64,000 bases of DNA from Tubulanus polymorphus (Eukaryota; Nemertea; Palaeonemertea; Tubulaniformes; Tubulanidae), in contig NC_134031.1 in assembly GCF_964204645.1 (NCBI RefSeq), forward strand, positions 14,939,307-15,003,306, in the 5' to 3' direction. The stretch's first letter is position 1; the number at the start of each line of letters is the position of its first letter. Below the pieces are notes generated by a model. The model had not been told where the DNA came from. It ran no database searches and saw nothing but the letters and a program-made list of their open reading frames with translations. The translations under genes and the position numbers were made by a program. Positions 15,035 to 55,291 of this stretch are shown here, in pieces.

Positions 15035-18000
15035 ATGGCGGACGTTGACAGCTCGGCCGTTGCGGATGTAAGTTAGTTGTATATTTACTGTTAATTTGTC
15101 ATCGCTTCATCAGAAAATTAAACTGTTTTGTTATTTTATTAAAACAAACTTCAATCTTTAATCGAAACGAGTTTTGTAAAGATTCATTATGATTAAAGTA
15201 ATTAAAATTCAATTAGTCGGCGTTGAAGCCTGGTCTGTGTTTACTCCGCTTTGCTGAGGGTGAGGGAATTTTTCATCCTTGTTTTCTACTATTTTCAGGT
15301 GTTAAATGCTGACAATTTTAATCTCGGTGAATTGGATCTGACTTCTCAGGATTTCCTTCTCGATGAAGTTGATGGTAAGTCGACTCCGTGCTGTCAGTGT
15401 CACTGTTTCTGTTGATGGAAATACATTTTACGTAAATTTAATAAGGTAATCAAATCTTTGATGTTATGTTCTCCTTTGTCAACAGTTCACATTCAAGAGA
15501 ATTTAGAAGATGAACTCGTAAAAGAAGCTTTAGAATCTGTGAGTAAAAAGATTGTATCCGGATTCAATCATTTCTGATACGACGGTATGACGAAACATTC
15601 GTAAGTGTATCGTAGCAAAATTTTGCTAACTGCTGGGACCATCGAGGAGACGACTGTTGCCCTCTGCTCTTGGTCCATGCAGACTAGTTAGTTACCTAAT
15701 CATTGGAGCGAAGCTTTTATAATCGGATGGGCTTGTAGAATAACCAACACTTGGGGTTGAATGAAAATGAAAATATCGAATCGTGAAACTAAACCACAGA
15801 CAGGTTACTGACTACATGCAGACTTGCGTTCCATGTTGCCTTAGTGCATGATAAGATTTTAAAGAAAAATTTGTTTCATTGTTCAAATATTTGCGGATTT
15901 ATTTTTTCAGGGCGTCGATTTACGTCAGTACTCGAGACAAATAGAATCGGAATTATTAGACGTTGAAAATGCATCGATACAAGATTGTATCTTTTTTTAA
16001 ATCATTTTGATATGAAACTATTAAGAACAACCTGAAAAAGTTCGGAAAATTCCTTAATTCGATTTTGTAGATATTAAAGAAAGTGGAAATATCGCAAATC
16101 TTCATAAACAAATCGCGTCATGTGACAACATTCTAGAGGTTTGTTTCATAAAATCGTCGCTCAGAAAGAGTGGAAATATTTCTCTCTGATCCTCAGTTTG
16201 ATGTTGAGAGCGGAAATATTTCTCTCTGATCCTCAGTTCGATGTTGAGAGTGGAAATATTTCTCTCTGATCCTCAGTTTGATGTTGATAGTGGAAATATT
16301 TCTCTCTGATCCTCAGTTCGATGTTGAGAGTGGAAATATTTCTCTCTGATCTTCAGTTCGATGTTGAGAGTGGAAATATTTCTCTCTGATCCTCAGTTTG
16401 ATGTTGAGAGTGGAAATATTTCTCTCTGTTCCTCAGTTTGATGTGGAGAGTGGAAATATTTCTCTCTGATCCTCAGTTCGATGTTGAGAGTGGAAATATT
16501 TCTCTCTGATCCTCAGTTCGATGTTGAGAGTGAAAATATTTCTCTCTGATCCTCAGTTCGATGTTGAGAGTGGAAATATTTTTCTCTGATCCTCAGTTTG
16601 ATGTTGAGAGTGAAAATATTTCTCTCTGATCCCCAGTTTGATGTTGATAGTGGAAATATTTCTCTCTGGTCCTCAGTTTGATGTTGAGAGTGATAATATT
16701 TCTCTCTGATCCCCAGTTTGATGTTGATAGTGGAAATATTTCTCTCTGATCCTCAGTTTGATGTTGAGAGTGGAAATATTTCTCTCTGATCCTCAGTTTG
16801 ATGTTGATAGTGGAAATATTTCTCTCTGATCCTCAGTTTGATGTTGAGAGTGGAAATATTTCTCTCTGATCCTCAGTTTGATGTTGATAGTGGAAATATT
16901 TCTCTCTGATCCTCAGTTTGATGTTGATAGTGGAAATATTTCTCTCTGATCCTCAGTTTGATGTTGATAGTGGAAATATTTCTCTCTGATCCTCAGTTTG
17001 ATGTTGATAGTGGAAATATTTCTCTCTGATCCTCAGTTTGATGTTGATAGTGGAAATATTTCTCTCTGATCCTCAGTTCGATGTTGAGAGTGGAAATATT
17101 TCTCTCATGATCCTCAGTTTAATTTTTTCCTGATTGTTACAGACAATGGAAGAGATGTTGAACAGTTTCCAGGCCGACCTCGGTTCAATCAGTCACGAGA
17201 TCCAATCCCTACAAGAACAGTCGGTAGCAATGAATATCAAACTGAAAAATAGACAGGTTTTTAAACGATTAATCGACTTATATCCGTTTATCCCAGAGTT
17301 CTTAAAGATTGGTTGATGTATGATTATATAAATGTGTATGTTTTATAGGCCGTTCGTGGTGAGTTAAGTCAATTCGTCGATGAAATGGTGATTCCTGATA
17401 CAATGATCAGGTTTGTAATCAATTCTACCATTTTCCAGTGGTCTAAACGTCGAATATTTCTATATTCAATTAGTATTTTTTTGTCGGTAGTGTAATTTGT
17501 GACACGGCCGTCACTGACCGAGAATTCCTCGAACAACTTCACGAACTCAATCATAAAATCAACTTCGTCAAAGAACAATCGTTTAAAGACTCGCGTTCGA
17601 GCCACGACGTTAAAGATACCCTCGAAAAACTGAAACTGAAGGTAACTATTACTCTTACTGTAGTTTCATTAAAATTGAGGATTTTTTATTTATTTCAAAA
17701 ATAATGAAATTCATCGATGTTTTAAATTTCAGTCGATCGCGAAAATTCGAGAATTTTTGCTACAGAAAATTTATTCGTTTCGAAAACCGATGACAAACTA
17801 TCAAGTTCCACAGAATACGATGTTGAAATTCAGGTAAGTCTAGATACAGATCCACAGTTCAGGACACAGTTCACAACCAAGTAGCAGTTGTGAAGCCTGT
17901 AGAACATATTTGCTGTAGAAGTGAAGACTGAAAAACTGCAGAATATTTTGCAGATTTTTCAACGAGTTTCTGATGGCAAATGAACGTCACGTTGCTAAGG

Positions 18001-35216: not shown

Positions 35217-38200
35217 TTAATTCCATTGGGCGCCTTTACTTTGGTTCGTACCCCAGCCTCCCGCGTTACCGGCGTCGCCCTGGCCGCCAGGCCCGCCCCA
35301 ACCGCCGGTCAGAAACCCTCCGCTGGAACTGCTACTGCCCTGACTGGCGCCCCCGAAGCCACCGCCCTGATTCGCGCCCGGATTATCCGAGGCGTTGCCG
35401 CCCTGACTGGCGAGACCGAGTAAACCCCAGCCGGCTTGATTCAGCGCCGCCGACGCCGCAGCGACCATCGCCGGGTTCAACTGAAACGGACCTACATTCA
35501 TATTCATCGGATTATTAGCGGCATTACCTGCCCCGCCTCCGCCAGCTGCGTTCATATTCCCCGCCGATATACTAGCCATATTACCACCGGGACCTTGACC
35601 ACCGCGACCTTGATTCCAGCATCCGCGACTATAGCCGCTCGGTCCGTCGTAACCCCCGCCTCCCTGCTGCTGTTGCTGCTGCTGCTGCTGTTTGCGCATG
35701 TCGTTTTTGTCATAGTTTTTCGGCGCCGCCTGGCTGACGTGAACGCTGACGCCTTTGATGATGTGATCCTCGCCGAGTAAGCCCTGCGCGACGTCCGAAT
35801 CGGCGAACGTAACGAACGCAAACGCTCGGAACGGTTTCGGAATGAACACGTCGATCACTTCGCCGAAATCGCTGAAATACGTCCGCAAATCGTCGGCGGT
35901 CATTTCTTCGGTCGTGCGGCCGACGAATACCTTCCTCGGGGCGCAATCCTACAACACACACACACATATATACATCACAAATTGGGCTAAAAAAATTGAT
36001 GCCTTGTTTCTCATTTTTGCTGAAATTGACCCACCCGGGCCGCCTATCTATACACCCTGTGTACATTACATGTACTTTCTTTTTAACCCTTTCAGTGCTG
36101 ACTAATTAATACCCTATAGTGCTGGAGATAATTTGAAAATTTTGAAAAATTCCACCGTAGTGTGTTGAATAACGGGAATAGCACTATAGTGAGTCTACAC
36201 CCTGGCGCGGTATATCGTTAGTTACTAGTATTTCACTTTGTTTGACAGGTGCTGCCATTTTTCAAGAGAGATTATTACTAATTATTAATCAAATCAATAC
36301 ACCGCAGTGCAATGTACTAGCAAAATCCATCATCGATTCATACACTGCACTGGGGTGTAGACGCACTGAAAGGGTTAATCATGATCAATTTCACCATAAC
36401 AGCTAAAGAAATGAACTCACTACAAATTTTATCACATTTCACAAAATGACCCGGCCGCAGCAGAGAATCAAGGTATCAAGGTTGCCTAGCCTAGAAATAG
36501 TAATTCAATTTCTATAGCGCCCTATTCACTGCGATTCAGTGTTCAACGGCGCTTTCTATCGAACTGGTAATATAACCCCCAGCCTTATCACTCTAACCAT
36601 TTATCAGTCATCTCTCTCTGGGGAGAGAAGTAACATCCGAGCAGCTGCTATAGGCGCCCAGGAGTCATCTATCAGGCCAGGTACCCATTTACTCCTGGGT
36701 AGAGAGCGGTAATGAGGATAAGTGTCTTGCCCGAGGACACTACGATAATGCGATAATGTACAGGGTTCAAACCCACGACCTGGCTTCCGAGAGTTGAACG
36801 CTCTAACCACTCGCCCTCACAACACTCATATACAAGTTTTCAGCTATTCTCTCGGTATGCAGTTGTGAATGACTGATAATTAACATACTTAATTTTTACT
36901 GAATGACGAAAAAACACATATGTGGTTGATTAAATCCACCTACAGGTAACAAGTTAATCTTAAGTCCTGTTTTTGGTTACAGGTTTTAAAACATTTAGTT
37001 GTCAATTGACCTCATGAATACAACTCAACCAACAGCTGGGGAAATGATAAAATTGATGTATCCTGCAGGAAAAACTGAATCCTCAATTGTGGAACTAGAT
37101 TGAGATCAATAATTAATAACTGTCGCAGAGTTTATAATAGTTTGTAGGAAGAGTCTTGAGATTTCTGACCAAATTGCTATGTGAGAACTGCGAGGGGCAG
37201 TGAAAGTCTCTTACCTCGTGAGTTCCTACTTTAGAATTCGGTATTCGAACCTCACACCATCGTCCGTCAATCATGTGCCGTTGTTTTAAACATTTCCGTT
37301 GAGACTCGTAATCGGCGAATCGTATGAATCCGTAGCCTTTCGATTGTCTCGTCTGTAGATCTCGTTTTATCTACGAAATATCAAAGATACCGGTCGTCAT
37401 TTTCCGAAATGTCTCAAAATCTAGCAAGTTCAATCGCAGAATTCACTGAGCTCCACGTGAAAGAACCTGGGCTGAATTTACAGCACACTCTATCATCCAG
37501 TAACCCGAGAGTGGTGTTAAGTTTTACAATCACAACGCAAGTTTTCGATTTTAAACCTCGTTTAACCTTCAAGAATTCCATCGGTAACTTAACAACAATC
37601 CTGAAACAGTTTAATGGGATACCAGCAAGGCTACTGAGGGAAGTGCGAAATCAGCGATAATCCTGCCATAATCAGCCAGGATCGCTTATGGCACTGGGCA
37701 CCTTTCGATTTCTACATTTCAATTGAAATTGGAGTCAACTTTTCCGATAAGTAAATAAATTTTCAGCAAAATCAATACCATACACTGAGTCAGAAAGCAA
37801 ATCTTAAGTATATCTATCCGATGACTTTTTTGATAATTTTCGAATTTGCAAGCCTTAAAGTCGAGTTCGTATTAATTTCACTGAAAATTAACTGATTTTC
37901 TGAAATTCACTACAAATGACCAAGGGACCGGTTTTATAGACAGGTATCAACTTTAACCCGGGGGCTAACTCAATTCATTTTCAGTCAAGTTAACCCCCGG
38001 GTTAAAGTTTATACCAGGTCTATAAAACTGGCCCCAGGGCCCAATTTTAAAACACTGGTACTAACTTTAACTAAATCTAAATCAGTTAAAAATGAATTCA
38101 GTTAGCCCCAGGACCAAGTTCCACAGTTGTGAGTTAAAACTCAAAGTTAGTTCATTTTCGATGAGTTGTTGGTAACTCAAAAGTTTAATCTTAACTCGGA

Positions 38201-40337
38201 ACTGTGGAACTGGACCCAGGTTTAAGTTGAACCAGTCTATAAAACTGGCCCCGGTGTTTTTGTTGCGCCATCTTGTTCAGTGCCGGTATATTCCGATTGA
38301 TGTCCCTCGCTCTTGCCGGTTTACTCATACCTGAACCATAATAACTTCGCCGAACTGCTCAAAGTATTTTCTGACGTCATCCTCGGCGCTCTTCCACGGC
38401 AACCCGAGTACGATTAAATCGCTGCATTTCTTCTTTTCGACGCGTTTTGTTTTCGCCGTCGGATTTTCTAAACCGTCGTCGCCTTTTCGTTTATTTTCTG
38501 TTTATCGAAAAATAAAGTAAGAACGAAAATTCAATCAAATAAAAAAACAAACAAATTTCTTGAAATATTTTTTTCCGGTTAAAATGAAACACTATAAACA
38601 ACACACGGATGATGATCATATACAACATTTAGATACAAGCAGCTGATACACAGACCTCCAGTTATAGAAACATTCATTCATACAGCACCGGCAGCTACAG
38701 CTACCAGCAGCAGCTACAGCTACCAGCAGCAGCTACAGCTACCAGCAGATTTAACTTCATTCAAATTGAAATCATTCACACTTAAAAATTCTCTATAGAG
38801 AAAATCTTAATTCAACTCAACTCGAACCTCATTATAACGACAATTTTCGGGCAACCAGAAATTGGGGACCCAATTCCACAGTTGGACTGGCTCATGAACT
38901 GTGGAACTGGCCTCAGAACTGGGGAATCAGGTCCAGCAGCACTGTGGAACTGGGTCCGGAACTGTGAAACTAGGTCCAGAACTGTGGAACTAGATCCTGA
39001 ACTGTGGAACAGGGCCCGGAACTGGCTTCTAAACTGTAGAACCTGGTCCAAAACTGTCGAAGTGAGTCCAGAACTGTGGAACTGGGTCCAGCTGTGTGGC
39101 ACTGGGTCCTGAACTGTCGTAATGTGCAAATCGATCACATTTTCATTTTGAAATGAAACCTTTACTGAAAGTCGTTTTATCGAGGTTCGACACTTGAAAC
39201 TCCTCCCCAAATTCTACACTAAATATGTTTTTCGTATAAATTTGTACTTTTTTTTACGCACCTGTGTGCCCCCAATTATCAATGCAGTACGCCCCTCTGT
39301 CATCCCTGGATAACTGGAGCCCTGCAAAAATGGTTAACAACATTTAAAATACGTCATCAGAATACTTCATTTTACACCTGTGAAGAGAATTACGGGCACC
39401 GGTTTTATCGATCAGGGCCCAGTTTCACGAAGAAGTTTAAGCCTAAAAACCGATAGGTTTGAATTGTTGTCCTCATTGAAAACATTAAGTAACCAATGGC
39501 AATTCCACCAAAAATTTGAGTAAAACTTCTTTTTGTGAAACTGTGCCCAGGTGGCAGATTCACTGGGAGGTTCAAGTAAAGACAGTCCAGTCAATAAAAC
39601 CAGCCCCCGGATGGCAGTTTGGAGAATATAGCAAAAACATTGTCTTTAGAGTCATTGCATTTTTCTACCTTATAAAATACCTACAACAGTAAAACAGCGT
39701 GTAGCTCATAGTAGGTCTGATTGAATCAGTAATAATAGCTACTGAAAAGGCTAGCTACCAATCGGGGTAGGGCTTAAAAGTAACCGGTCAGACTGGTAGC
39801 CTAATTAGATAGTGTTCTTAAAATGACTAATTGTGTCAGAGCATCTTCCATCAAAATATAGGTCACGCTGGTAATAAGTAAGTCAACTAAAAGTTGATAT
39901 TTCAGGGTAGAAAATAGATATTTGTGATCTTCACTAATTGAAATTGATAATTAAACACAAATAATCAAACAATTCCACGATGAAACGGTTACAATTCGAA
40001 CGTACATAACAAACGGGCCATAAACCTGGCACGGTGCCAATAGTATGTTTACACGATATCTTGAGTAGAATTCGATTGGTTTCGAACGGATTTTACCTTT
40101 TGGAAACACGCAGATGAATAGAATACTTCCCCAGCGAGAATCGGGCGGATGGAGCCGACCATCCACCAGTCGGATGCCTCTCATAGCTCCCGTTTCAGGA
40201 TTACGATATTTCAGCCCGCACGCCCCTGGATACTGCGCTGCCAGCGTCGACAGCGTCAACGTTCCATCCTCTTCTGTCGGCAATTCAATCGGTTCATCGT
40301 CATTTTCCTCTTCTGCGACCTGAACGTATTGTAGCAT
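35217..40337 (-). CDS. TARDBP: TDP-43 (TAR DNA-binding protein), four coding exons
   Basis: Nuclear RNA/DNA-binding regulator of splicing and mRNA stability. Coding exons: 40097-40337, 38331-38497, 37215-37370 and 35217-35948; phases join to 1,296 bp (431 aa; human 414). Domains: N-terminal oligomerisation domain about 1-80 ([19 protein letters not shown]); RRM1 about 103-178 ([31 protein letters not shown]); RRM2 about 193-262 ([43 protein letters not shown]); then a Gly/Asn/Gln-rich low-complexity tail with nine Gln at about 275-283 and the conserved helix-forming segment [19 protein letters not shown] about 340-358. The last exon holds all of RRM2 and the tail. A 60-bp possible cassette exon lies in intron 1. 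It is head to head with LPCAT3. Confidence 0.95.
36500..36825 (-). mobile_element. tRNA-derived SINE, copy 1
   Basis: On the minus strand the 5' end reads gagggcgagtggttagagcg (A-box-like) and then gtgggtttgaaccctg (B box), followed by a central region (gacacttatcctcattac, gtaaatgggtacctggcctg) shared with the copy at 46,139-46,470. It ends in a ggcgctatagaaatt tail. It lies in TARDBP intron 3. The central block resembles the Nin/Deu-type conserved domains of animal SINEs. Confidence 0.8.
37925..38265. mobile_element. Foldback elements in TARDBP intron 2
   Basis: A nearly perfect palindrome (ggttttatagacaggtatca ... ataccaggtctataaaac with cccggg cores) spans about 37,930-38,030. It is followed by a related, weaker one to about 38,260 that uses gttccacagttgtgagttaa / ttaactcggaactgtggaac arms. 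Non-coding; boundaries approximate. Confidence 0.6.
38693..38752. repeat. Short tandem repeat agcagctacagctacc
   Basis: Three to four copies of a 20-bp word (agctacagctaccagcagc) in TARDBP intron 1. Confidence 0.8.
38875..39125. repeat. ~20-bp minisatellite, gtggaactgggtccagaact type
   Basis: About twelve diverged copies in TARDBP intron 1. The same word recurs in arrays at 49,130-49,860 and, in complement, 57,130-57,305, so it is a family spread through this window. Confidence 0.8.
39262..39321 (-). other. Candidate 60-bp cassette exon in TARDBP intron 1
   Basis: Bounded on the minus strand by tttttgcag and gtgcgt, exactly 60 bp. In the phase set by exon 1 it is free of stops and would insert about 20 residues (G-L-Q-L-S-R-D-D-R...) between the N-terminal domain and the NKRK nuclear-localisation signal. 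Exon 1 also joins directly to exon 2 as K-E-N-K-R-K, matching other TDP-43 proteins, so this exon would be optional. Chance cannot be excluded. Confidence 0.35.
39405..39605. mobile_element. Foldback MITE, cagtttcacgaagaagttta ends
   Basis: gggcccagtttcacgaagaagttt at the left is mirrored by aaacttctttttgtgaaactgtgccc at the right, about 140 bp apart. Non-coding, in TARDBP intron 1. Confidence 0.6.
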
Positions 40338-40755
40338 GATTGATTATTTACATCAGCCGTCACTGGGTCGTCTCTCTTATCAAACACAACGCCTTCGAAA
40401 ATGACCCGAAATATTCGCAGTTTGCGCGAAACAAGATGGCGACCGACGACGCTTAACTGAGCTGCATCATGGGAGATACATTTTCATCCGACTAGAAATA
40501 TCCTTAAATCCATGAATCAAATTCACATTTAATTAGAGACGAATAATTACTGCAATTAAGATTGTAGATTTGGGTAATTAGTAATGTATGGACTCTTACA
40601 GGAGGCGCCAGGGGTAGTGTCGTAAGTCGTATATCTGATCAATCGACATCGTAAGTCTAATCCTAGTTCGGATGTCGTAAGACTAGGTGGCGCCAGGTGA
40701 CGGTGTAGTGTAGGTGGCGCCAAGTGACGGTTGTACGATACGGTTTATTGAGACG
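40338..40755. promoter_or_regulatory. Probable bidirectional promoter, TARDBP / LPCAT3
   Basis: 418 bp between two divergent start codons. It contains two copies of gtggcgccaggtgacgg-like sequence (about 40,686-40,735) and no obvious TATA box. Both 5' UTRs must lie here unless upstream non-coding exons exist. Confidence 0.55.
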
Positions 40756-43700
40756 ATGGCGTCGACCGTGGATGGTGCGGATATAGGATCCGTCGCTAAA
40801 TTAGCGACTGTTTTAAGCACGTCGGAACCCGCGCTTAGATTGTTTATATCTCTGTTATCAGGTAACGTCTAGTTTTAATATATTCTCAACAAATGACGGC
40901 CTGTGCGACGCTATGAAGGGGATGACAGGCTGAATGTTTATCTCATTGAGACTCAAAAACATCTCTTATGCTATTTTGCCACTTGGGACTGGAACAAATT
41001 CATAAATTCTGCCTAACCGGCACCTGTTCTCCTCGCCGTAGAAAAAGAGTATCCACACAATTTTACATGATTTTCTTCCTGTCGGTAAATTCTGAAGTAG
41101 CAAATCTTTGCCAGAATCATAGCATGAACATGACATCTTGAAACTAGTGAAAATAAGCGCAAGGCCATGGCGACTATAAAAATCTGATTATTTACACTTT
41201 CTTTCAATATGGTATTTTTTCTATTGATACAGAACAACGCTGGTGTTTTTAGTGTCTTGATATCTCGAAATTAGTCTCAGGGCGGCAAAGAATTTGAAAT
41301 ACCGTGAATTCTATTCGGAGTGGATATTTAACCGTATACGGCAAAGTATTTACTTCCGCTATTTTACCGTACATTATTTCTATATATATATCTAGTATTA
41401 ACTAATAAAAATAACAATAAAATCATTATATTGGGTTTAGGGTTTTGATAGGGTTAGTGTCGAGAGGGTGAAAAGAGGGTCCAGAGGGTTCCGTTTTACC
41501 CCTAGGGATAGGATTAGGGTAAGGTGAGGTACTATAGCTAGTTAAAACATTCGGTTGGTTTTCAGCGAGCTCGGTGGTCTATTGGGGACGTTCTGCGAGT
41601 CTCGCTCTATCCGCTCTATTTTCTCTAACTCTGTTCTCCACACTTTCCTTGAATTTTCTAAGTCGCGCATGCGCGGCGTAAACCGGCCAATCAGCGACGA
41701 TGTACACGGTAAAATAGCGGAAATAAATACTCAGCTGTATACGGTAAAATATCCGCTGCCTATTCTATTTCTTTCGACAATCGGATATTTGATAGTATTT
41801 TCTATTGATTGATATATTTTCAGCGTATCCACTGTCATTGATTCATCGTTATACTCTATACGGTAAAACGCCCTTCATCCAACATGTCTACTTCGCTTTA
41901 TTCGGATTCTCATTCATGTATTTCAATTTCGGTAAGTTTTGCGCATTTTAGATTTTAGAATATCGTTTTCTTTTGTTGATACATTTGGTAATTAGAAATT
42001 ATTTTTAATAGTCGGTTTTCAATCAATTGGTTCAATCGCATAAACCAGCAAATTAATATAAATACTTGATTGAGTCGGCCGACAATTACAAAAAAATGTT
42101 TACAAATCTGAATAACAGAATCATGTTAACAGTTTGCCAGTGGCGGCCCGGCTTGGTGAGACGTTTAGGCACGATAGTTTCAGTGACATCTGGTGCCGCT
42201 TGTGACACATTTGTAGATTATGACATTCAATTTACAACCGTTAAACTGGTTTCGATTTTGAATGGCCCTTAATATATAGTTCGACTGTAATTGACGAAGT
42301 CTTTTTCGAATGGAAATGTGAAATGATGGTCATTAAAATCATTTTGAAATCGCTCTGAAATAATCAATTTACGGTTCTGATCAATTCTCAACAATTAGAG
42401 CTATAACTAAGCACTTCAAGCATTTTGAAAATTGCTCTTAAATTCATATAAAATGTTCTAGATCGACTAGGGGTTGATTGAAATCATTGAAGTTGTCACA
42501 GTTATGAGAATCATCATGTAAAAATGGCTTTTCAAAATGAAGACTTGCGCTGTTTGAATTAGGACTCAAGAATAGAGTAATATGACGACTTATTCAAATG
42601 ATGACTTACACTAAGTGAATTGAATTGGGATTATGATTTTGGACTCAAAAATAGAGATGACTTGAGTAATATAATGACCTAGGCCTATCAAAATGATGCC
42701 TAGTGAATCAAATTGTGAATGTAAATTGGAACTCATGAATAGAGATGACTTCAGTAATGTGACAACTTATCCAAATGATGACTTAAACTGTTTGAATAAG
42801 GACTCAAGAATAGAGCAATCTAATGATCACTTACACTTACGCCTAGTTGATTGAATTGGCAATTAGACTAAAAAATAGAGAAATGATTTCAGTTATTTGA
42901 GTGATAGCTTATCCAAATGATGACTTACACAGTAGTTTAACTGTATGACTTACAATGTAGTTTGACTGATTGACTTATACTGTAGTCTGACTGTATGACT
43001 TACACTGTAGTTTAACTGTATGACTTACACTGTAGTTTAACTGTATGACTTACACTGTAGTTTGACTGTATGACTTACACTGTAGTTTGACTGTATGACT
43101 TACAATGTAGTTTGACTGTATGACTTACAATGTAGTTTGACTGTATGACTTACAATGTAGTTTAACTGTATGACTTACACTGTAGTTTGACTGTATGACT
43201 TACACTGTGGTTTGGCTATATGACTTACACTGTAGTTTGACTGTATGATTTACATTGTAGTTTGACTGTATGTCTTACACTGAGTGTAGTTTGACTGTGT
43301 GACTTAGACTGAAGTTTGAGATGACTTGCGGGTCTCAACCGCAGAAGGCACCAGTACACCAATAGAACTAGTCCACTTGACCAGTGGTTATACAACGTAT
43401 CGACTGTGTGGCTGATGTAATACATAGCTGTATTGTAATTTCAGGTATTGATGCAGTAAATAGTATTGTAAATGTGCTCGCTGTATATTTGATACTACGA
43501 TTTATTAAAGATAGGAAATTATGCGTTGGGATCATTTTCTTTTTTAACATTGTAAGTATTCAATATTACTTTGCACAAAAACTACTTGTGTTTTATTCAT
43601 TAATTTGCTATATTGAATATTTTTCCTCTCTAAACTCAGATGTTTTCGAGTTAAACTTGGAACACGAATCATCCAATGAATATATTAGAATAGAATTTAA

Positions 43701-46700
43701 TGGAATTCTATTTTCGAACTTGAATTTTCACAAAACTCGAACAAACGTTGACAACCTGGTCCTAAATTGATTCGAGAGTTTGAACCTTATTTGCGTCGTT
43801 ACGGAACTAAAATGCTCGAAATCGATTTCGAATTTTAAGCCATCATTTTATGAATGGCGCGTTTCAGTAGATCGCGTATAAAGCGACTGTTTCGCGTATA
43901 AATTCTAAAATAGTTTGATCTCTCGTAAAATCATCTGAATTTAAGCCGATTTCGCTTTGAAAATTAATACGACATTAAAACCCCAGTCGCAGATGTCGCC
44001 AGATGACGAGGAGTAAGGTGATCGTTAATTTTTTCGATTCCGATATATTTCAGGTTTATTTAACTCTGTTGTATTATTTAACCGCCACGAAGGAGTACGA
44101 TATAAAATGGACGACGCCTCATTGCGTTTTGTGTTTAAGATTGACCGGATTAGTGTTCGATATTTACGACGGAACCAAACCAGAGGTATGTAGGTGGCGA
44201 CGCCCGGGAGGGGGTTAAGTAGGTCGCGACGCCCGCAATTTACATTCAAATTTCGCTATAAACCAGTTCATTTCCACTGTTTCAATCCTACGGTTTGAAT
44301 ATTAACCTGGAATTCAGGGAAACTGGTTAATAATCCATTATCATCATCGCCGTAGTAACCACAATCGGCGCTTGTTCACTCCCGGGACCGATAAAACTAT
44401 TTCGATGATTATCCAGAGTCTCTGAACCAATGAAAAAGATACCGGTATTGTTGAAATTTTTTTGGTAATTCATTTTTCAGCACGAATTAACATCGGAACA
44501 GAAACCGACCGCTTTGAGAAAACTGCCATCTCTACTCGAAATATTCGGTCACATGTTCTTTTTCGGAGGCGCTTTAGTCGGACCGCAGGTTCGTCAATTA
44601 TTTCACCCGTATCGAAATGGTGATTTGCATTTTAATTGCATTTTTATTTTTATTTCTCAATTCTCAATGTTTCTAGTTCCCGATGACGCGGTATTTAGAT
44701 TTCATAAACGGGACGTTATTGGATAAAAAGTCGAATGATTTGCCGCGATGGTAAGCTTGCATTTTATCTTCTCTTTTCGTTATTGAGATGTTAGAATATA
44801 TTGATGATCTCTCTAAAGTCTTTTTGCTATGTTGAAATTTAATTTATTATTAAGTCTATTTGTGATAATGATATTTGATTATTGAACCTGATGATGACTA
44901 GTTTAAAGCAGGCAAAATGTTACGGCATTATTGAGGACTCTAAAGGCAAGCGAGGATCCACCTGGTGTCGCTAGTGTGCATTCCGGCAACAACTCCCGGA
45001 TTTCTTTTCAGATTCAATTGAAATCTAATACATTAGTCATAGGCGCCTAAATGTATTTTGCTTGGAATGGGCTGATAAGTATTCTACTGGTACTGTTTTA
45101 TGTGTCAATTAGGTTTTCGTCATGAAAAATGACCCTCAAATTTGGTGATCATACCCTCATAAACCCCTCAAATACCCCTCAAATTCCATATCGATGGTCC
45201 TGTAGGAACCATGTTATTTCTCAAATTCTTTGAACTGTGATTAGTAAAATTCACCCTTTATATGATCATCTGAGTTAATCAAGGGCAGTGATTTGGCTAA
45301 TTTCTGATGTGGGAAGCTAAAAATCCAGATGAAACTTTATCGAAAATGAACTAGATTGTGACAGGGTTGTTGCACTGATTAGCGGGCCATCTTGTGGGAT
45401 AGCTGGTGGCACGGAGTCCTCATTAACTTTCGAATTTAAACTTTAAGATTTCGTAAAATTTTTCAAATTCAATTATGCGATCTCACTGTGCGGAATTATG
45501 ATATATTTTACTTCAGAATTAGATATTTGAAATGTAGAGATTTTCGTTCAGAATCTATTTCACAAGCTAGCAGACGTCATTTCCAAAATAATAAGATATA
45601 TTTCGATATAATGTATCTAAAATATAAACGATATTACATAATATCGTTTAAAACCTAAAAGAGTCTACTTCAAATTTTTCCTCGCTCTCAAATTGTTGTA
45701 TATTTTCGTTTTTAATTCGAAGTTGAAACGATCAGATATTATAACCTGACAATCTTGATAGATAGAGCGACAATCGCGTATTTGATAAAACCGTTCTTTG
45801 AATCAGTTCAGTTCAGATAAACAAATCTTCTATTTGTAGATGATTAAATATTTTCATTCGTGTCGTCAAAAGTTCATCGATTCGTAAACTAGTTTTAAGT
45901 CAACTTTCGATCTTTGACTTATCGATGGTCGCGAAAGAAATATCGCATAACTAGAAAAAAAAGTACAGTTGAACCATTTGGGAATGACAGAATTCTTCCG
46001 ATTTAGGGGGATTCCGGATTAAAAGTCATTTTCTTGTATGTAAATAAACAAAATGGACTGCAAATAATGTTCGGATTAGACCTAGATCCGGATTAAGCTG
46101 TATTTACATTTATGGGAATGTAAATAAGATCTCTAAGGAGAGGTGTGGATGAGTGGATAGAGCATTCGACTCCAGGAAGCTAGGTCGTGGGTTTGAACCC
46201 TGTACATCATCGTAGTGTCCTCTGGCAAGACACTTATCCTCATTACCGCTCTCTACCCGGGAGTAAATGGGTACCTGGCCTGATAGATGACTCCTGAATG
46301 CCGAGTGTTACTTCTCCCCAGGGAGAGATGACTGATACATGTTAGAGTATTAAAACGGCTGGGGTAATAATACCAGAAAATGTAAAGCGCTCTGAGCAGC
46401 TTTGCTGGATTTAGCGCTTTATGAGACATATAGTTATTATTATTACTATTATTATTATTATTATTATTATTGATATAAATAATGGTTTAACTGAAATGTG
46501 AGTATTTAATTTTCAGCGTAGTACCAGGATTACAGAGACTAGGGGTCGGTATAGCGTTGGTCTCATTCTACCAGATCGGATCGATATATTTTCCCGACGA
46601 TTTTCTCGTGTCCGATCGATTTGACGTAAGAGCGATTTCGACGAAAGGAAATATATTTGTTAAACGCTTCTATAAATTTCCACCACCGCTGCTTCCCGTA

Positions 46701-49700
46701 CAATCTATATGTGGCAACGTGCAGTGGAATCTCGTTACGACGAACTTCACGGCATCAGAAAATATGTTCGTTTTAACCGATAGTTCATTATATCCAGTGT
46801 GAAATAGATTAAATTTTCTTACTCGGGGCAAATTTCTTTATTTACAGTCAACCCCCCCGATATACCACCCGCATTAGAACAGAACTATTTTGGCAGTATA
46901 GAGAGTATGGCAGTATATCGAGGGTGTACTACGTATTTGTGTAGAGATGTACATTGAGAAAACCTGGCGGTAGGCGGGGGTGGCGGTATATGGGAGGGCG
47001 GTATATCAGGGGTTGACTGTAGTAAAATCACGCTATAAATGAATTAATGTCTAAAAAGTTTATGTGTAAAAAGTTTATTTGAGAATTAGGAATATTTCGG
47101 GTGGTCACTACCACCCTTCTTCTGTATGAAATGAAGAAATTTAGATTGAAGAAGGGTGTTGTAGTAACCACCCGAAATATTTCTACTATTTTCATTAACT
47201 TATTATGCATTTCTTCATTTATTGTGGGATTTTAATATTATGGTTTTATTACGGATTTTTATTTAGCTACAGCCGATTCATCTAGCAGTATATTTGTTAT
47301 ATCCGATGAATCGTTGTATTTGAGTTCGTTGTAACGAGGTTCCATTGAATAATCATGATTATTATTAGCATGGTAGCATGGTGGCTGTTATTGCACTCTA
47401 TCAGTGGAACTCTCAGTGTCATGGGTCTCCCTCCCTCCCTCTTTCCCTCCCTCCCTCCCTCCTATCTGTCCCTCCCTCCCTCCCTCGGCCCTTCATTCTG
47501 TCTCTCCCTCCTTCCGTCTCCCCTCCCTCCCTCTTTACCTCCCACCCTCCTTCCTTCACTCCCTCCCTCCCTCCTGTCTGTCTCTCCCTCCGTCCCTCCC
47601 TCCTGCCTCTCCCTCCCTCCGTCTCTCCCTCTCTCACTCCTTCCATCTCCACTCCCTCCCTCGCTCCCTCCCTCTCTCCCTCTCAGTAAACAAGAGGAAT
47701 CTATGGAAAAATTATTCCGAAAAGACACCTTTTAAATTCATCCACTTGAATCGGTATAAACAATGTGTTTTATGTGTTTTGTGAGCGATGAATATATGTT
47801 CAGGCATTTGTAGCGTTTGAATGCGTGAAATGTTTTTTCAAGGGTGGCTTTCTTTTTTTGCGGTAGAATTGGTTAGATTGAAACTGGTTTAGAATTTTGC
47901 TCAGTGTTCGGGTAAAAAAAAAAGAAAATGGAAATTCGAGTAGATTTTATACACCGTTATCGCTTCAAATTCCATGGGAGATTTTTCTGCTAAATTTCAA
48001 CAGAAAAATAATCTCGATGTACAATGCGAGTGGTTTATGTCAGCATTATGTATTAATAACACAAATGTCTGAGCATGATATTAATTGTTATATGGTCGCC
48101 GGGCTGCTGCTGTCACTCTCGCTGCTGCTGCTGCTGCTGCTGCTGCCACTGCTGCATCCATTCAATTTGCTTTATAGTCGTGCTGTATCTTGGCAACAGA
48201 TTTTGTTTATAGTGTGGACTTAAAGAAAAAAATATACCTTTGTTACGATTGATGGAAAATGTGAATTGAGGGATGTGTGCCCTGGTGGATCCAGGGTATC
48301 ATCTGTGGGAGGGTCCGGGGGCATACTGGCAGTGGTACCTCTTCCTTAGACTAAAAATATTTTGACAAAATGTTTTGATTTGATTAACTTTCTTTTTTAT
48401 TGGAGAGCATTTGCAATTATTTTGCAACATCGACTAATGCCCCTATCCAATGTTACAGTGCATTTGAATGAATGGTAACCTCAAAATTTTGACCTGATTC
48501 CACTGGCCCCTCTGGAAGGAATCCTCTGGATCCACTCGCCCCCGAGGGAGACAATCACTGCAGCATGTGACAAGCACGGGAGAGGGCTGGGGGTGGTATG
48601 GTGCTGATGGCATGCACAGGGGGAGGGAGGGGGTTAATGGCATGCACAGGGGAGGGAGGGGGTTAATGACATGCACAGGGGGAGGGAAGGGGGTAATTGC
48701 ATGCACAGGGGAGGGAGGGGTTAATGGCATGCACAGGGGAGGGAGGGGGTTAATGGCATGCACAGGGGATGGAGGGGGTTAATGGCATGCACAGGGGAGG
48801 GTGGCGGTTAATGGCATGCACAGGGGAGGTGGGGTGGGGGTTAATGGCATGCACAGGGGAGGGAGGGTGGCGGTTAATGGCATGCACAGGGGAGGGTGTA
48901 TCGTATTGTCTGTGATCACATTATTTTTATTTGCGATTTTTCAGTTTTCGCCACGGTCTGAAACGTCTTGCTATCGGTCTGTTTTATACATTTCTGTTTG
49001 TGGTTGTTTTGAATACGTATTTTCCTCAACAGTTCTATTTTACACCTCAGTTTGATGTACGTATTCATCGTATTCATTCCTGCTGCACCTGACTGGTTTC
49101 ACTTTGGACCGGTTCCATTTCAGTTTTTAAAGTGACAAGTTACCCAGAACTGTGGAACTGAGTTCAGAACTGAGGTACCGAGGTTCAGAAATGTAATACC
49201 GAGTTCAAAACTGTAGTTCAGAATTATGGAACTGGATGCAGAACTGTGGAACTCATGTCAAAACTCAAGTATCAAGTTCAGAACTGTGGTACCAAGTTCA
49301 GATCTGTAGTATTGCCGTGTTCAGAACTGTTGTATCGAGTCCAGAACTAATGGAACTGGATCCAGAACTGTGGGACTGATATCAAAACTGTAGTACCGAG
49401 TTCAGAACTGTGGTACCAAATTCAGATCTGTAGTATTGCCGTGTTCAGAACTGTTGTTTCGAGTTCAGAACTAATGGAACTGGATCCAGAACTGAGGGAC
49501 TGATATCAAAACTGTAGTACCGAGTTCAGAACTGTGGTACCGAGTTCAGATCTGTAGTATTGCTGTGTTCAGAGCTGTTGTATCAAGTCCAGAACTAATG
49601 GAACTGGATCCAGAACTGATATCAAAACTGTGGTACCAAGTTCAAATCTGTAGTACCGAGTTTAGAACTGTAGTTTCGCTGTGTTCAGGACTGTGGTATC

Positions 49701-52700
49701 GCAGTTCAGAACTAGTACAGAGCTCAGAACTGTGGAACTGGGTCCAGAACTATGGAACTGAGTCCAGAACTAACTAATGTCAAAGCCGTAGTACCAAGTT
49801 CAGATCTGTGGTACCACTTTCAGAAATATGGAACTGGGTCCAGAACAGTTTTAATTTTGTTGTGAATTTCTGACCCCAATAACATTATTAATACTTCTAA
49901 TAATAGATATCCGCTGAATGCTGTTCACGGTTCTTGGTTAGCTATAACTCATTCATGTTTCTATTGCTCCATTATAAATATCTCGAATAATGACTTTGGT
50001 TTAATACACGTAATGTTTCTATATTCCTCAGTGGTGAAAAATGTTTTTGAATTAACTCGGTCCATACAGAGACCCTAACCTGGAGAACTAGGCTATAGAG
50101 ATAGCCCCCGCCCACCATCCCCCCTCTTCTGGGACCAGTTCCATAGCCAAGGCTTAGACTTAAGACCAACTTAGTTCTATAGCCAATCTAACAACTTAAG
50201 ACCAGTCTTAAGATTTAAGACCACTTTTGGTCTTAAGTCTTGACTATGGAACCGGCCCCGGAGCGTTCCACCATGTGGAAAGCTTTCAATCTCAATTTTA
50301 TCTTTCAATATCAATTATATTCGCTTTCCGTTCTGTTCTGCTTGCTTTTGTTTTCACTCTGTTTGTTTCATGCATAACGAGACATTTGACCGTGTGGCTT
50401 AGATTTTACCTCTCCCTGAATATAACAACCCCTGTGATACAGTTAACCAGGCTTTATCTAACTGAGCAACGTTAAGACAAATTCAGATCGGTAACTTTGT
50501 TGTGATTGTGGCTTATAATGGATAAAAGATTTACACTAATTTGAACTATTTTGAGAATGAACTTATATTTGGTTTTGGATTACAGTTGAACTGTTTAACC
50601 GTAACTGGTGTCCTGTCTCAACTCTCTCTCAATAACAGTTAACATGCTTGTACTGTATTATGCTTTATGTTTAATGCTGTATTGTTCACCGATGTTGATA
50701 TTATATTATGTTTAAGCTGTATTATGTTTAATGCTGTAATATGCTTAATGCTGTATTGTTCACCGCTGTTGATGTTAATTAATTTTGATCAATGATTTAT
50801 TGACATAGCATGATGATCGATGACAATAAGTTATTGTTAAAATGTGAAGCTGTTTCTAAGTCTGTGATAAACCAGTCAATGATGAATCAGTCAATGATAA
50901 ATCAGCCAATGATATATCAGTCTATGATATATAGGTCAATGACATATCGATCAATGATATACCAGTCAATGACATATCAGTCAATGATATATCACTCAAT
51001 GTTATATCAGTCAATGACATATCAGTCAATGTTATATCAGTCAATGTTATATCAGTCAATGATATATCAGTCAATGTTATATCAGTCAATGACATATCAG
51101 TCAATGTTATATCAGTCAATGTTATATCAGTCAATGATATATCAGTCAATGTTATATCAGTCAATGACATATCAGTCTATGTTATATCAGTCAATGATAT
51201 ATCAGTCAATGTTATATCAGTCAATGACATATCAGTCAATGTTATATCAGTCAATGACATATCAGTCAATGACATATTAGTCAATGATATATCAGTCAAT
51301 GACATATCAGTCAATATCAATTTCTGGTCTCCGTTCTATGGTTTGTTTGGGTTAAAATTTGCCTCTAGAGTTTGAATTGGATCATTTTCAATGTTTTTGC
51401 GAATCTGAATTTTAGCCAACAAACTGTTGAACTGGACGTATCGGCCCCACTCCGCGCGGTTGCACCACCGCGCGGGATTTACGCGAAGCAGCAGAACACA
51501 AACACGGCCACTCTCTCAATTTTCAATGATAGAAATCGTGTGTGCATTTCAATTATTTCCGCTGTTAGGGTTTTAAGGCACAATATAAGTTGATGATGTG
51601 ATATGGCGATGTTAATTAATGATAATTCCGCAGTGAAGCTAGTCACGAACGGTTCCGATTGAGTGTACAGCTGCCAAAAACACTGAAATGTGCGTAGTTG
51701 CGTAACTATTTGCAGTGAATTGCAGACGAAACATGAAGCCTTAACGGCTGTTTAAAAAAAAATTATACCAATCGCAATTGTGAAATAAAAATGAGATAGA
51801 ACCTAAGTTATAATTCTGGCCATTTCTAAAATGTTATTAATTATTATTACTAATCTTTAGTCAGTGCGGAACGTTTAGTTTTCCAACAATAATGAGGGGT
51901 GGTAGGTAGTCATGCAATTCAAGTCATCATTTATTACACGTTACTTCCGTGTTGTTGAAAATCTCGCGAGTCCTGGACTAAACCCCAATGAACAATGTGA
52001 TCTGTGTGCTGGCCACAAATGCACACAGATCACACTACACTACCCATTACACACTCCAGTACGCAAAGCTCTCATATATCCATCCAAATATTTAGTGGCT
52101 TTCTTCCTGGATCTTGAGTTTTATCTCATCTCATTTTGATCTCGTAATTAATGGAATTTCGTCGTAAGATCACCATTTGGACTTAAATTCGAATCTAAAG
52201 TCTTGGAATCTAAAGTCATATTATTCATGTTGCCTTGTCTTGAATGAGATTTGTTTGTTTTGTAGGAATTATCGCTATGGAAGAAACTCGCATTCGTCAG
52301 TTTGTGGGCAAAATTAACGCTGTATAAATACGTATCATGTTGGTTGATATCGGTGAGTATTTCTTTCCATCATACTTCATTTAATCAGTGTGTCTTTAAC
52401 TTGTATCCTAATTCATACATATCTCATTTCATACATATATTCATACATAGTATACAGTTCCACACTACAGGAACCCAAAACTGTGGAACTGAATCCAGGG
52501 CAAACTTCGGTTATCAGAGTTAGTCGAACTAAACAAAATCAAATGTCAGTTAGTCGGAACTTTGGTCCGTAAATGGTAGACCACAGGACTGCGGTCACTG
52601 TAGTTCAGGCCTAGTTCCAAGATGGCTGACTCAGTGAGATGCATTACGACCGAACTAGAGTGCATTTGGTTATTAGCTCCAGCCACTATTCGTCAAGCTA

Positions 52701-55291
52701 CAAAAAATCAAAGTTCACCCTGAATGGTGGAACTGGATCCAAAACTGTGGAACTGGGATTCAGAACTTGAAGAAAGCTGTATTGTGATTGGTTTATTTCT
52801 ATGTTTAGGAAGGAAGCTGTATAGTGATTGGTTTATTTCTTTGTTTAGGCAGGAAGCTGTATTGTGATTGGTTTATGTCTACGTTTAGGAAGGAAGCTGT
52901 ATTGTGATTGGTTTATTTCTATGTTTAGGAAGGAAGCTGTATCGTGATTGGTTTATTTCTATGTTTAGGAAGGAAGCTATATTGTAATTGGTTTATTTCT
53001 ACGTTTAGGAAGGAAGCTGTATTGTGATTGGTTTATTTCTATGTTTAGGAAGGAAGCTATATCGTGATTGGTTTATTTCTACGTTTAGGAAGGAAGCTGT
53101 ATTGTGATTGGTTTATTTCTATGTTTAGGAAGGAAGCTGTATTGTGATTGGTTTATTTCTATGTTTAGGCAGGAAGCTGTATTGTGATTGGTTTATTTCT
53201 ATGTTTAGGAAGGAAGCTGTATTGTGATTGGTTTATTTCTATGTTTAGGAAGGAAGCTGTATTGTGATTGGTTTATTTCTATGTTTAGGAAGGAAGCTGT
53301 ATTGTGATTGGTTTATTTCTATGTTTAGGAAGGAAGCTGTATTGTGATTGGTTTATGTCTACGTTTAGGAAGGAAGCTGTATTGTGATTAGTTCATTTCT
53401 ATGTTTAGGCAGGAAGCTGTTTTGTGATTGGTTTATTTCTATGTTTAGGAAGGAAGCTGTATTGTGATTGGTTTATTTCTATGTTTAGGAAGGAAGCTGT
53501 ATTGTGATTGGTTTATTTCTATGTTTAGGAAGGAAGCTGTATTGTGATTGGTTTATCGTATAATGGTAAAGATGAGAATGGTAATGATCTATGGGATGGT
53601 TGCGCGAATATCAAAATCCGCAAATATGAATTATCGATTTCGTGCCATGATTCGATTGCCTCGTTCAATATCAATACGAATATATGGAGCGGCAAGTAAG
53701 TACATGCGACCTTCGTCTATATGCTTGCTGGGTTAAGATTTCAATAATGTTCTCGTTTGATTTCAGGTATATTTATAAGCGGTTAAAGTTTCTAGGAAAT
53801 CGTAAAATATCTCAGATGTTTACGTTGATGTACCTCGCGTTGTGGCATGGACTTCATTCCGGATATTTCATGTGCTTCATCTTCGAGTTTGTAGTCATCA
53901 AATTTGAAAAAGATGTAAGTATTACCTCCGAATACCTCCTTACCCAGAGGTTAAATACCTCCCTGCAGAGGTCAGATACTTCCCTACAGAGAGGTCAAAT
54001 ACATCCCAACAGAGAGATCAAATACTTCCCTACAGAGAGGTCAAATACTTCCCTACAGACGGGTCAAATACTTCTTTATACAGAGGTAAAATACTACAAA
54101 GAGGTCAAATACCTCCCTACAGAGAGAGCAGAAATCTCCCTACAGATAGATCAGATACATCCCTACATAGAGGTCAAATACTTTCCTACAGGTAGGTCAA
54201 ATACATCCCTACAGATAGGTCAAATACCCTCCTACAGAGAAGTCAAATTCTTACCCTGCTGAAAGGTCAAATACATCCCTACAGGAAGGTCAAATACTTC
54301 CCTATAGAGTGGTCAAATATTTCTATATATTGAGGTGAAATGCGAGTAGAGTTTTGCGTAATAGTTTATTTCAGTTTCCGCGTATGAATCAGATGTCTCT
54401 CTATTTCAGTTGATATATTTGTGTAACCGATGGAGTTTATTGTCGTCTATAGTGAACAATACGACTTTAAAACCATTGCTGATAATACTGAGAAAGATAT
54501 ACCACTTGAATACGATAGGATACGCAATAGTCAGCTTCAGTCTGCTCAAACATGCAAAATATGGCAAGGTAAATGATAAGCCACCAGGAGGGAAGGGGGG
54601 CATTTGCAAGGTTGAACTCTTCATAATTTCACTGAAGTTGATTTTCATCCTTTGTGTTTATTTTCCAGGTCTATGCATCTATTTATTATTGGGGTCACTT
54701 GTGGTTTTTTGTCATTTGGCCGTTGCTGTTTATTGCCATTACAAAACTTTTACCGAAGAAACACAAAGAAGAAAAGTGAGTTAATTTCCTAGATGTAGAC
54801 TTCCTCGTTTCCTAGATATCAGGACTACGTTTCCTAAAAATCGGCGCCCGATTCTGCATGTTCAGCTGAGGAAATATATTAACTTCCGATTTGTAAACTC
54901 TGAATTCAGCAGACAACGGTTGAACTGGGTCGAGAGTTAGATAAATGGTCACTTCATTTTCAATTACATTTACAACTCATTGAGTCAAATCAGAACCCAC
55001 TTCAGTAGTTCTCAGTCAGAACCCGGAATCGTGTAGCACCAGGGGAGGGGGCTGTAGAATGAACCGGATCCTGTAGCCCCTGGGGGAGGGGGCTGTAGAA
55101 CGAACAGGATCCTGTAGCCCCAGGGGGAGGGGGCTGTTGAATCGGGTCCTGTAGCCTCAGGGGAAGAGGGCTCTTGAACCGGGTCTTGTAGCCTCAGGGG
55201 AAGAGGGCTGTAGATGGGGAGGTGATTAATCTCTTGATCAATGAAATTTTTCACTTCAATTTATTTCAGGCCGATCGAAAAAACCGAGTAA
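40756..55291 (+). CDS. LPCAT3: Lysophospholipid acyltransferase 5 (MBOAT family)
   Basis: ER membrane enzyme that reacylates lysophospholipids with polyunsaturated acyl-CoA (Lands cycle). Coding exons: 40756-40861, 41824-41931, 43445-43551, 44054-44185, 44481-44588, 44677-44750, then either 46517-46625 or 48945-49056, then 52266-52352, 53529-53695, 53767-53914, 54410-54568, 54669-54775, 55270-55291. Either choice keeps frame and gives 477 or 478 aa (human 487). Family landmarks: EYDIKWTTPHCVL, LPSLLEIFGHMFFFGGALVG, LTLYKYVSCW, DGCANIKI, the active-site Asn region SFNINTN, KRLKFLGNRKISQ and the catalytic His in LALWHGLHSGY. The C-terminus is Lys-rich (KKHKEEK). The first coding exon begins MASTVDGAD. 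Many introns carry minisatellites. Confidence 0.93.
41308..41769. mobile_element. MITE with ~65-bp terminal inverted repeats
   Basis: Left arm ctattcggagtggatattta...ttccgctattttaccgtaca; the right arm is its imperfect complement (tgtacacggtaaaatagcgg...atccgctgcctattct). It lies in LPCAT3 intron 1 and ends about 50 bp before exon 2. Non-coding. Confidence 0.65.
42560..43325. repeat. ~25-bp minisatellite in LPCAT3 intron 2
   Basis: From about 42,900: some 16 copies of tgacttacactgtagtttga-ctgta. The preceding 340 bp (42,560-42,900) hold longer diverged repeats with the same atgacttacact word, which look like the ancestral sequence. Confidence 0.9.
46139..46470 (+). mobile_element. tRNA-derived SINE, copy 2
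   Basis: Head ggtgtggatgagtggatagag (A box) with gtgggtttgaaccctg (B box), central block cttatcctcattaccgctct / gtaaatgggtacctggcctg, tail taaagcgctctgagcagc then gcgctttatgagac and a (ATT)n end. It is in the same family as the copy at 36,500-36,825. Sits just before LPCAT3 exon 46,517-46,625. Confidence 0.85.
46517..46625 (+). other. LPCAT3: LPCAT3 alternative exon 7a
   Basis: 109 bp, entered in phase 2 and left in phase 0. It codes (after the shared Cys codon) VVPGLQRLGVGIALV... ending YFPDDFLVSDRFD. It is homologous to the exon at 48,945-49,056: GL.RL..G, YFP..F and FD line up. It covers one membrane helix and the following loop. Confidence 0.85.
46845..47019. mobile_element. 175-bp Tc1/mariner-type MITE
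   Basis: CAGTCAACCCCCCCGATATA at the left and ...TATATCAGGGGTTGACTG at the right, flanked by TA on both sides. Non-coding, in the LPCAT3 intron after exon 7a. Confidence 0.8.
47090..47185. repeat. Hairpin-forming inverted repeat
   Basis: aatatttcgggtggtcacta ... followed after about 40 bp by its near complement (gtagtaaccacccgaaatat). A small foldback element or a decayed MITE. Confidence 0.7.
47421..47690. repeat. (CCCT)n-like low-complexity tract
   Basis: About 270 bp of imperfect ccctccctccct. The long frames that cross it on both strands are artefacts of composition. Confidence 0.95.
48595..48898. repeat. ~30-bp minisatellite, ggcatgcacaggggagggag
   Basis: About ten copies of gttaatggcatgcacagggg followed by a variable G-rich part. 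The array ends only about 45 bp before the acceptor of LPCAT3 exon 7b. Confidence 0.92.
48945..49056 (+). other. LPCAT3: LPCAT3 alternative exon 7b
   Basis: 112 bp after tttttcag, with donor gtacgt. In phase 2 it reads FRHGLKRLAIGLFYTFL... YFPQQFYFTPQFD, closer to vertebrate LPCAT3 (ALKRLSLGLFY) than exon 7a is. If spliced after exon 7a it is read in phase 0 and meets TGA at 49,053-49,055. If both exons are skipped the next exon runs into TAA. Frame therefore permits only one of the two. Confidence 0.85.
49130..49860. repeat. ~20-bp minisatellite, cagaactgtggtaccgagtt type
   Basis: Some 30 diverged copies, with a higher-order unit of about 125-130 bp visible between 49,300 and 49,600 (gtattgccgtgttcagaact recurs). 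In the LPCAT3 intron after exon 7b. Confidence 0.88.
50131..50265. mobile_element. Palindromic MITE GGGGCCGGTT family, copy 3 (complete)
   Basis: gggaccagttccatagccaa ... gactatggaaccggcccc: both ends are present and complementary, with ttaagaccagtcttaagatt inside. This is the best-preserved of three copies in the window. Confidence 0.75.
50840..51322. repeat. 15-bp minisatellite tatatcagtcaatga
   Basis: About 30 copies, with alternating variants gtta/gaca/gata. Because the unit is five codons long, it is open in several frames (repeating Y-Q-S-M-L), but it lies in an LPCAT3 intron and is not called as a gene. Confidence 0.93.
52770..53528. repeat. 40-bp minisatellite made from the acceptor of LPCAT3 exon 53,529
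   Basis: About 19 copies of a unit containing tttctatgtttag followed by gaaggaagctgtattgtgat and tggtttat. That second part is the first 28 bp of the true exon at 53,529, and tttctatgtttag is its acceptor. The array thus consists of tandem 3' splice sites each followed by a copy of the start of the exon, with the real exon as the last copy. Confidence 0.95.
53925..54345. repeat. ~20-bp minisatellite, ggtcaaatacttccctacag
   Basis: About 20 diverged copies in the intron after LPCAT3 exon 53,767-53,914. Many units contain ctacagag, a weak splice-acceptor look-alike. Confidence 0.9.
55015..55215. repeat. ~36-bp minisatellite, gatcctgtagcccc...gagggggctg
   Basis: Five to six copies in the last LPCAT3 intron, ending about 50 bp before the final 22-bp coding exon. 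Confidence 0.9.

Follow-up and report, generated by a model that had tools for sequence, protein, structure and literature searches.

A segment of the nemertean Tubulanus polymorphus genome, 64,000 nucleotides long (contig NC_134031.1, positions 14,939,307 to 15,003,306 of the forward strand; hereafter the window), carries a gene for the acyltransferase LPCAT3 in which one exon exists in two homologous versions, 7a and 7b. We consider it likely that the two constitute a functional mutually exclusive pair, which arose when the exon encoding the sixth transmembrane helix (TM6) and the loop between TM6 and TM7 was duplicated in tandem. The duplication would have supplied two swappable versions of this helix. 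Transcripts with exactly one of them are predicted to encode the full-length enzyme, while transcripts with both or neither would meet an early stop and are expected to undergo nonsense-mediated decay. Exon 7a, the ancestral-like copy, is probably the default form, and 7b would be a regulated derivative; splicing factors are presumed to make the choice between them, with frame and decay clearing errors. Such a swap may tune the access of the acceptor lipid, the release of the product or the membrane context of the enzyme, leaving the catalytic His and Asn and the acyl-CoA pocket unaltered.

Two homologous exons in the LPCAT3 gene

Reconstructed one exon at a time from the window, the gene lies on the plus strand, where 12 coding-exon positions between 40,756 and 54,779 join into an uninterrupted frame across introns that are all GT-AG. 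The product comprises 471 amino acids with exon 7a and 472 with exon 7b. Its nearest solved relatives over the whole protein are structures of chicken LPCAT3 (7F3X, 1.7e-80; 7EWT), whose match spans the protein's length, whereas MBOAT7 reaches only 2e-4, and the Pfam MBOAT domain is recovered in the two versions at 5e-55 and 1e-53. In the alignment, equivalents of the catalytic Asn and His, of the Tyr residues contacting lysophosphatidylcholine (LPC) and of Glu401 are all present (SFNINTN, WHGLHSGY, YDIKW, YKYVSCW and the E in CFIFEF). The full-length match and the Pfam domain identify the gene as LPCAT3 (MBOAT5), in agreement with the original prediction, which was made from the DNA letters, and LPC acyltransferase activity is predicted for its product. 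The 268-Mb assembly contains one copy of LPCAT3 and no processed retrocopy that might have served as a record of spliced use.

Exons 7a (46517-46625, 109 bp, (C)VVPGLQRLGVGIALVSFYQIGSIYFPDDFLVSDRFD) and 7b (48945-49056, 112 bp, (C)FRHGLKRLAIGLFYTFLFVVVLNTYFPQQFYFTPQFD) are both bordered by AG and GT, and are both entered in phase 2 and left in phase 0. They code for one and the same stretch of protein, with the common pattern GL-RL--G...YFP--F...FD, as first proposed and here matched to the base. Exon 6 (44677-44750, phase 2) ends in ..CGA TG|, and the split codon TG|N is completed by C from 7a or T from 7b, giving cysteine either way. The two peptides align with a global score of 57, against -2 +/- 6.7 for shuffled sequences (z 8.8; 0/2,000 shuffles as high), while everywhere else in the six frames of the window the scores stay below 48.

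When 7a and 7b are joined, 7b is read out of frame and runs into TGA at 49,053-49,055, ending the protein after 284 amino acids; when both are skipped, TAA at 52,315-52,317 in exon 8 (52266-52352, phase 0) ends it after 228. Both stops had been foreseen, along with the consequence that full-length enzyme arises from one-or-the-other use (471 or 472 amino acids against 284 or 228), and the gene model upholds them. The frame clash is real, yet it is no independent evidence of design, because any exon one base longer than a multiple of three (1 mod 3) automatically becomes incompatible in this way when it is duplicated. Judged by the features that mark mutually exclusive pairs in PMC5740500, the exons are adjacent, homologous (z 8.8), similar in length and identical in phase; each alone fits its flanks, whereas joint use or double skipping is unproductive; and both copies appear to have been selectively retained, as indicated by the neutral simulation and the codon-position pattern described below for this one genome.

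The same arithmetic would allow a poison-exon switch, in which one exon (7a, by its likeness to vertebrates) makes the enzyme and addition of the second mainly lowers LPCAT3 through decay, since joint inclusion places a stop at residue 285, with several junctions still to follow. A pure poison exon, however, needs no LPCAT3-like TM6 peptide, and 7b seems constrained at the protein level in the exclusive frame, which makes this explanation quite unlikely.

Age of the pair and selection on it

The DNA of the two exons has diverged widely, with 42 of 108 aligned bases identical (39%). In a neutral test, 7a was allowed to drift to the observed DNA identity in 20,000 replicates and the protein score was taken; the peptide score of 59 compares with -20 +/- 13 under drift and was reached by 0/20,000 replicates, and only 18% of the drifted exons stayed free of stops. 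Identity at codon positions 1, 2 and 3 is 15, 21 and 6 of 36, so that differences fall mostly at third positions, and the proportion of synonymous differences (pS 0.95, saturated) stands against a non-synonymous proportion (pN) of 0.51. Given the low neutral scores, the codon-position pattern and the saturated synonymous sites, the duplication is old, with protein-level selection acting along the path between 7a and 7b. Constraint on both exons is the simplest reading of these data because 7b is still recognizably similar to chicken LPCAT3 (z 5.6), as is 7a (z 10.7). No third copy of exon 7 occurs in the window or in the 268-Mb genome, each of the two being found once.

A duplicate that is no longer spliced and has stayed intact by chance, whether 7b or 7a, would accord with 7b being the faster-changing copy. 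Against such a relic stand synonymous sites that are saturated in an exon whose frame is nevertheless open and aligned, with intact AG and GT borders and no frameshift, and the failure of any of the 20,000 neutral replicates to match it; we regard a relic as very improbable.

Of the two exons, 7a is the one nearer to vertebrate LPCAT3, as the alignments show, and 7b is taken to be the derived copy, the reverse of the polarity in the original prediction. Against chicken LPCAT3, the complete protein reaches 274.3 bits when it carries 7a and 261.9 bits when it carries 7b, and the segment itself scores 65 and 34, respectively. The alignment of 7a with chicken LPCAT3 is free of gaps, while 7b has one residue extra; identity to the chicken segment is 12/37 for 7a and 8/37 for 7b, a difference that alone is not significant. 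The MBOAT1/2-like paralogues were tried as an outgroup for polarity and rejected, their divergence being too great to decide it. YFP..F and the terminal FD are common to 7a and 7b but missing from chicken LPCAT3, so the duplication probably postdates the split from vertebrates.

Predicted place of the exon 7 segment in the enzyme

Exon 7 corresponds to residues 240-276 of chicken LPCAT3, in a numbering anchored in the alignment by K297, Y298, K365, K368, K373 and H388. In the chicken enzyme, TM6 and TM1 form a lateral gate through which LPC enters and phosphatidylcholine leaves, and the gate mutants I59A and K297A show raised activity (Zhang et al.). The homologous stretch of human MBOAT7, which includes Ala195, Phe205 and the prolines of TM6, forms the diagonal helix TM6. 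This helix lines the channel for the lyso-phosphatidylinositol chain and shifts on substrate binding, and mutants of it lose activity (PMC10267149). Because exon 7 aligns with TM6 of both chicken LPCAT3 and MBOAT7, it is predicted to encode TM6 and the TM6-TM7 loop, in line with the helix and loop first proposed for the segment.

The catalytic residues N352 and H388 lie outside exon 7, as do all of the published residues of the acyl-CoA side pocket (F344, I348, I404, M446 and L450). The earlier placement of the segment near the acyl channel, if the acyl-CoA channel was meant, is thus not supported, the segment being assigned to a helix of the lateral gate. Since TM6 and TM1 form this gate, an exchange of TM6 should affect the entry of the lysophospholipid and the exit of the product, and not the acyl-CoA side pocket. 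The differences of 7b fit a change at such a gate: 7b has 11 aromatic residues against 6 in 7a, a net charge of +2 against -2, and a best 19-residue hydropathy of 1.97 against 1.42 in 7a and 1.35 in chicken, and it is without the pre-helix proline and the acidic loop.

Both exons might be truly alternative and yet be chosen noisily, yielding enzymes that are functionally equivalent. Length and topology are kept, and the segment has no known catalytic residue, as this explanation would have it; the long retention of versions that differ in charge, aromatic content and length is nonetheless unexpected for interchangeable copies, and we judge functional equivalence unlikely. If instead the pair is functional, a more tentative suggestion, which we hold as possible though somewhat doubtful, is that regulated splicing exchanges the gate helix of LPCAT3 to give two enzymes differing in their lysophospholipid acceptor or in product release. 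No such exchange of a helix by mutually exclusive exons has, as far as we know, been described for an MBOAT enzyme, and it would offer a means of adjusting the composition of membranes to tissue, stage or temperature.

Possible routes to a choice between the exons

Competing RNA pairing of the docking/selector type, or incompatible splice sites, could in principle enforce exclusivity in place of the frame. The 7a-7b intron holds a CT-rich, low-complexity tract (47427-47682) complementary to a G-rich minisatellite of 29-bp units (48607-48896, both on the plus strand), as a pairing mechanism might require. These tracts, however, sit inside one and the same intron, and the best pairings among the three introns are equalled by 9-14 of 40 shuffles; the longest complementary arms found in the introns are low-complexity or tandem-repeat matches. 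As for the splice sites, a U12 mismatch and a steric class were considered and rejected, all sites of 7a and 7b being U2-type and the intron between them 2,319 nt long, and a distant branch point before 7b was likewise set aside, as the region upstream of that exon looks ordinary. Enforcement by pairing or by splice-site incompatibility is accordingly rated as highly improbable. With the pairing, U12 and short-intron routes unsupported, trans-acting splicing factors and the decay of wrong products are left to account for exclusive use.

The G-rich minisatellite ends 48 nt before the acceptor of 7b and contains GCATG in most of its units. This pentamer, the core of the Rbfox motif, occurs 13 times in the 7a-7b intron versus 0 and 1 times in the neighbouring introns, mostly in the one tandem array. 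Control of 7b by an Rbfox-type factor is a possible but unproven lead, because an array multiplies whatever motif it contains.

Two further elements were observed around the pair. A SINE-like insertion at about 46140-46475, recognized by eye, lies just upstream of 7a. Its head resembles a tRNA (GGGTTTGAACCC), and its tail, which finishes in (ATT)n, stops about 40 nt short of the acceptor of 7a. The 7a-7b intron also contains an imperfect MITE-like hairpin (47062-47210) whose 53-nt arms are 75% complementary.

Several points weigh against a functional mutually exclusive pair. The splicing of both exons is predicted from genomic sequence, their conservation is deduced solely from divergence within one genome, and the assignment to TM6 rests on sequence alignment and two papers. 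The introns around 7a and 7b contain no recognized element of exclusivity (pairing, U12 or short intron). In addition, 7b matches other LPCAT3 and MBOAT sequences less well than 7a does, and the signal of selection may possibly combine strong constraint on 7a with weaker constraint on 7b.

Gene structure and neighbouring features

The remaining coding exons, all on the plus strand, are exon 1 with the ATG start (40756-40861), exons 2 (41824-41931), 3 (43445-43551), 4 (44054-44185) and 5 (44481-44588), exon 9 with the catalytic Asn motif SFNINTN (53529-53695), exon 10 with the catalytic His motif WHGLHSGY (53767-53914), exon 11 (54410-54568), and exon 12 with the stop (54669-54779).

The acceptor of exon 9 is itself repeated. 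A 40-bp minisatellite at 52769-53556, extending from intron 8 into exon 9, consists of about 20 near-identical units, each made of the exon 9 acceptor and the first coding bases (TTTATTTCTATGTTTAG|GAAGGAAGCTGTATTGTGATTGG), and so places 19 additional 3' splice sites ahead of the real one, 15 of which match TTTAG|GAAGG exactly. Use of any of these 15 exact decoys leads to a stop within 33 codons, for which reason the spliceosome would have to choose the last of about 20 twin acceptors. This acceptor array is confined to this locus. Another 40-bp minisatellite, at 16167-17120, has about 24 copies of a unit with the acceptor-like sequence CTGATCCTCAG.

The gene for TDP-43 (TARDBP) occupies 35220-40343 on the minus strand, head to head with LPCAT3 and a few hundred bases from its start, with the N-terminal domain at 39954-40343 (1e-32) and the RNA-recognition motif (RRM) and glycine-rich end at 35220-35948. 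An apparently intact open reading frame for a Mutator-like transposase (585 amino acids, 2.7e-61) lies at 26925-28679 on the plus strand. Beyond the window, contig C6 carries at about 5.32-5.63 Mb about ten Hox genes (L032-L040 and L043) in an ordered cluster, all on one strand, among which Lox5, Lox4, Lox2 and Post2 types were assigned by eye, a set that most likely marks a lophotrochozoan. Mitochondrial COX1 had no match in the assembly.

Comparison with known systems

The recognition of lysophospholipids by different MBOATs is still unclear (PMC10267149), and for lysophospholipid acyltransferases it is unsettled what portions of the lateral gate determine which acceptor is chosen and how the product leaves. 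If the proposed pair is real, two enzymes differing in nothing but TM6 and one loop would provide a natural test of that helix, and membrane-lipid remodelling would come under splicing control. Among the genes checked, the TM6 exon duplication appears to be specific to LPCAT3. Three MBOAT1/2-like genes (L025, L026 and L027) lie within about 40 kb on contig C8, two of them in plus orientation and the third inverted, and none of the three has a TM6 duplication, each having a single intron-flanked TM6-like exon.

The original prediction knew of no described mutually exclusive pair at this position, and our search agrees. No paper linking LPCAT3 or MBOAT enzymes to mutually exclusive exons was found in the open-access literature searched, subscription papers, supplements and annotation databases being outside the search; LPCAT3 is absent from the main text of two exon-pair catalogues (PMC5740500 and PMC9741552), and MBOAT from the main text of the latter. 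It is quite possible that the two isoforms already stand unremarked in RefSeq.

In their architecture, 7a and 7b resemble the known mutually exclusive or tandem exon pairs of animals catalogued in human (PMC5740500) and in human and fly (PMC9741552), in which adjacent homologous exons, nearly equal in length and alike in phase, are used one per transcript and are frame-incompatible if joined; in these catalogues, the exon lengths of 60% of human mutually exclusive clusters are not multiples of three. Unlike LPCAT3, the catalogued pairs are enriched in ion channels, transporters and genes of muscle and nerve. Exons 4a and 4b of OGDH (PMC7969005) are likewise used mutually exclusively and tune an enzyme of metabolism, as is predicted here; their exclusivity is reported to come from distant branch points, whereas the branch region of LPCAT3 7b looks ordinary.

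The enzyme itself is like chicken LPCAT3/MBOAT5 (7EWT, 7F3X, 7F40; PMC8617236) across the whole protein, in its catalytic His and Asn motifs and in the positions of the LPC-binding Tyr residues, with 7a aligning gap-free. Chicken LPCAT3 has no known alternative TM6, whereas here 7b adds a residue and drops the acidic loop. MBOAT7 (8ERC; PMC10267149) has the homologous diagonal TM6 lining a lateral channel, and there the helix varies between enzymes (in its proline break), whereas in Tubulanus polymorphus it would vary between predicted splice forms of one enzyme. Thus, the kind of exon pair is well known, while the gene and the helix in which it is found are, as far as we have seen, apparently new.

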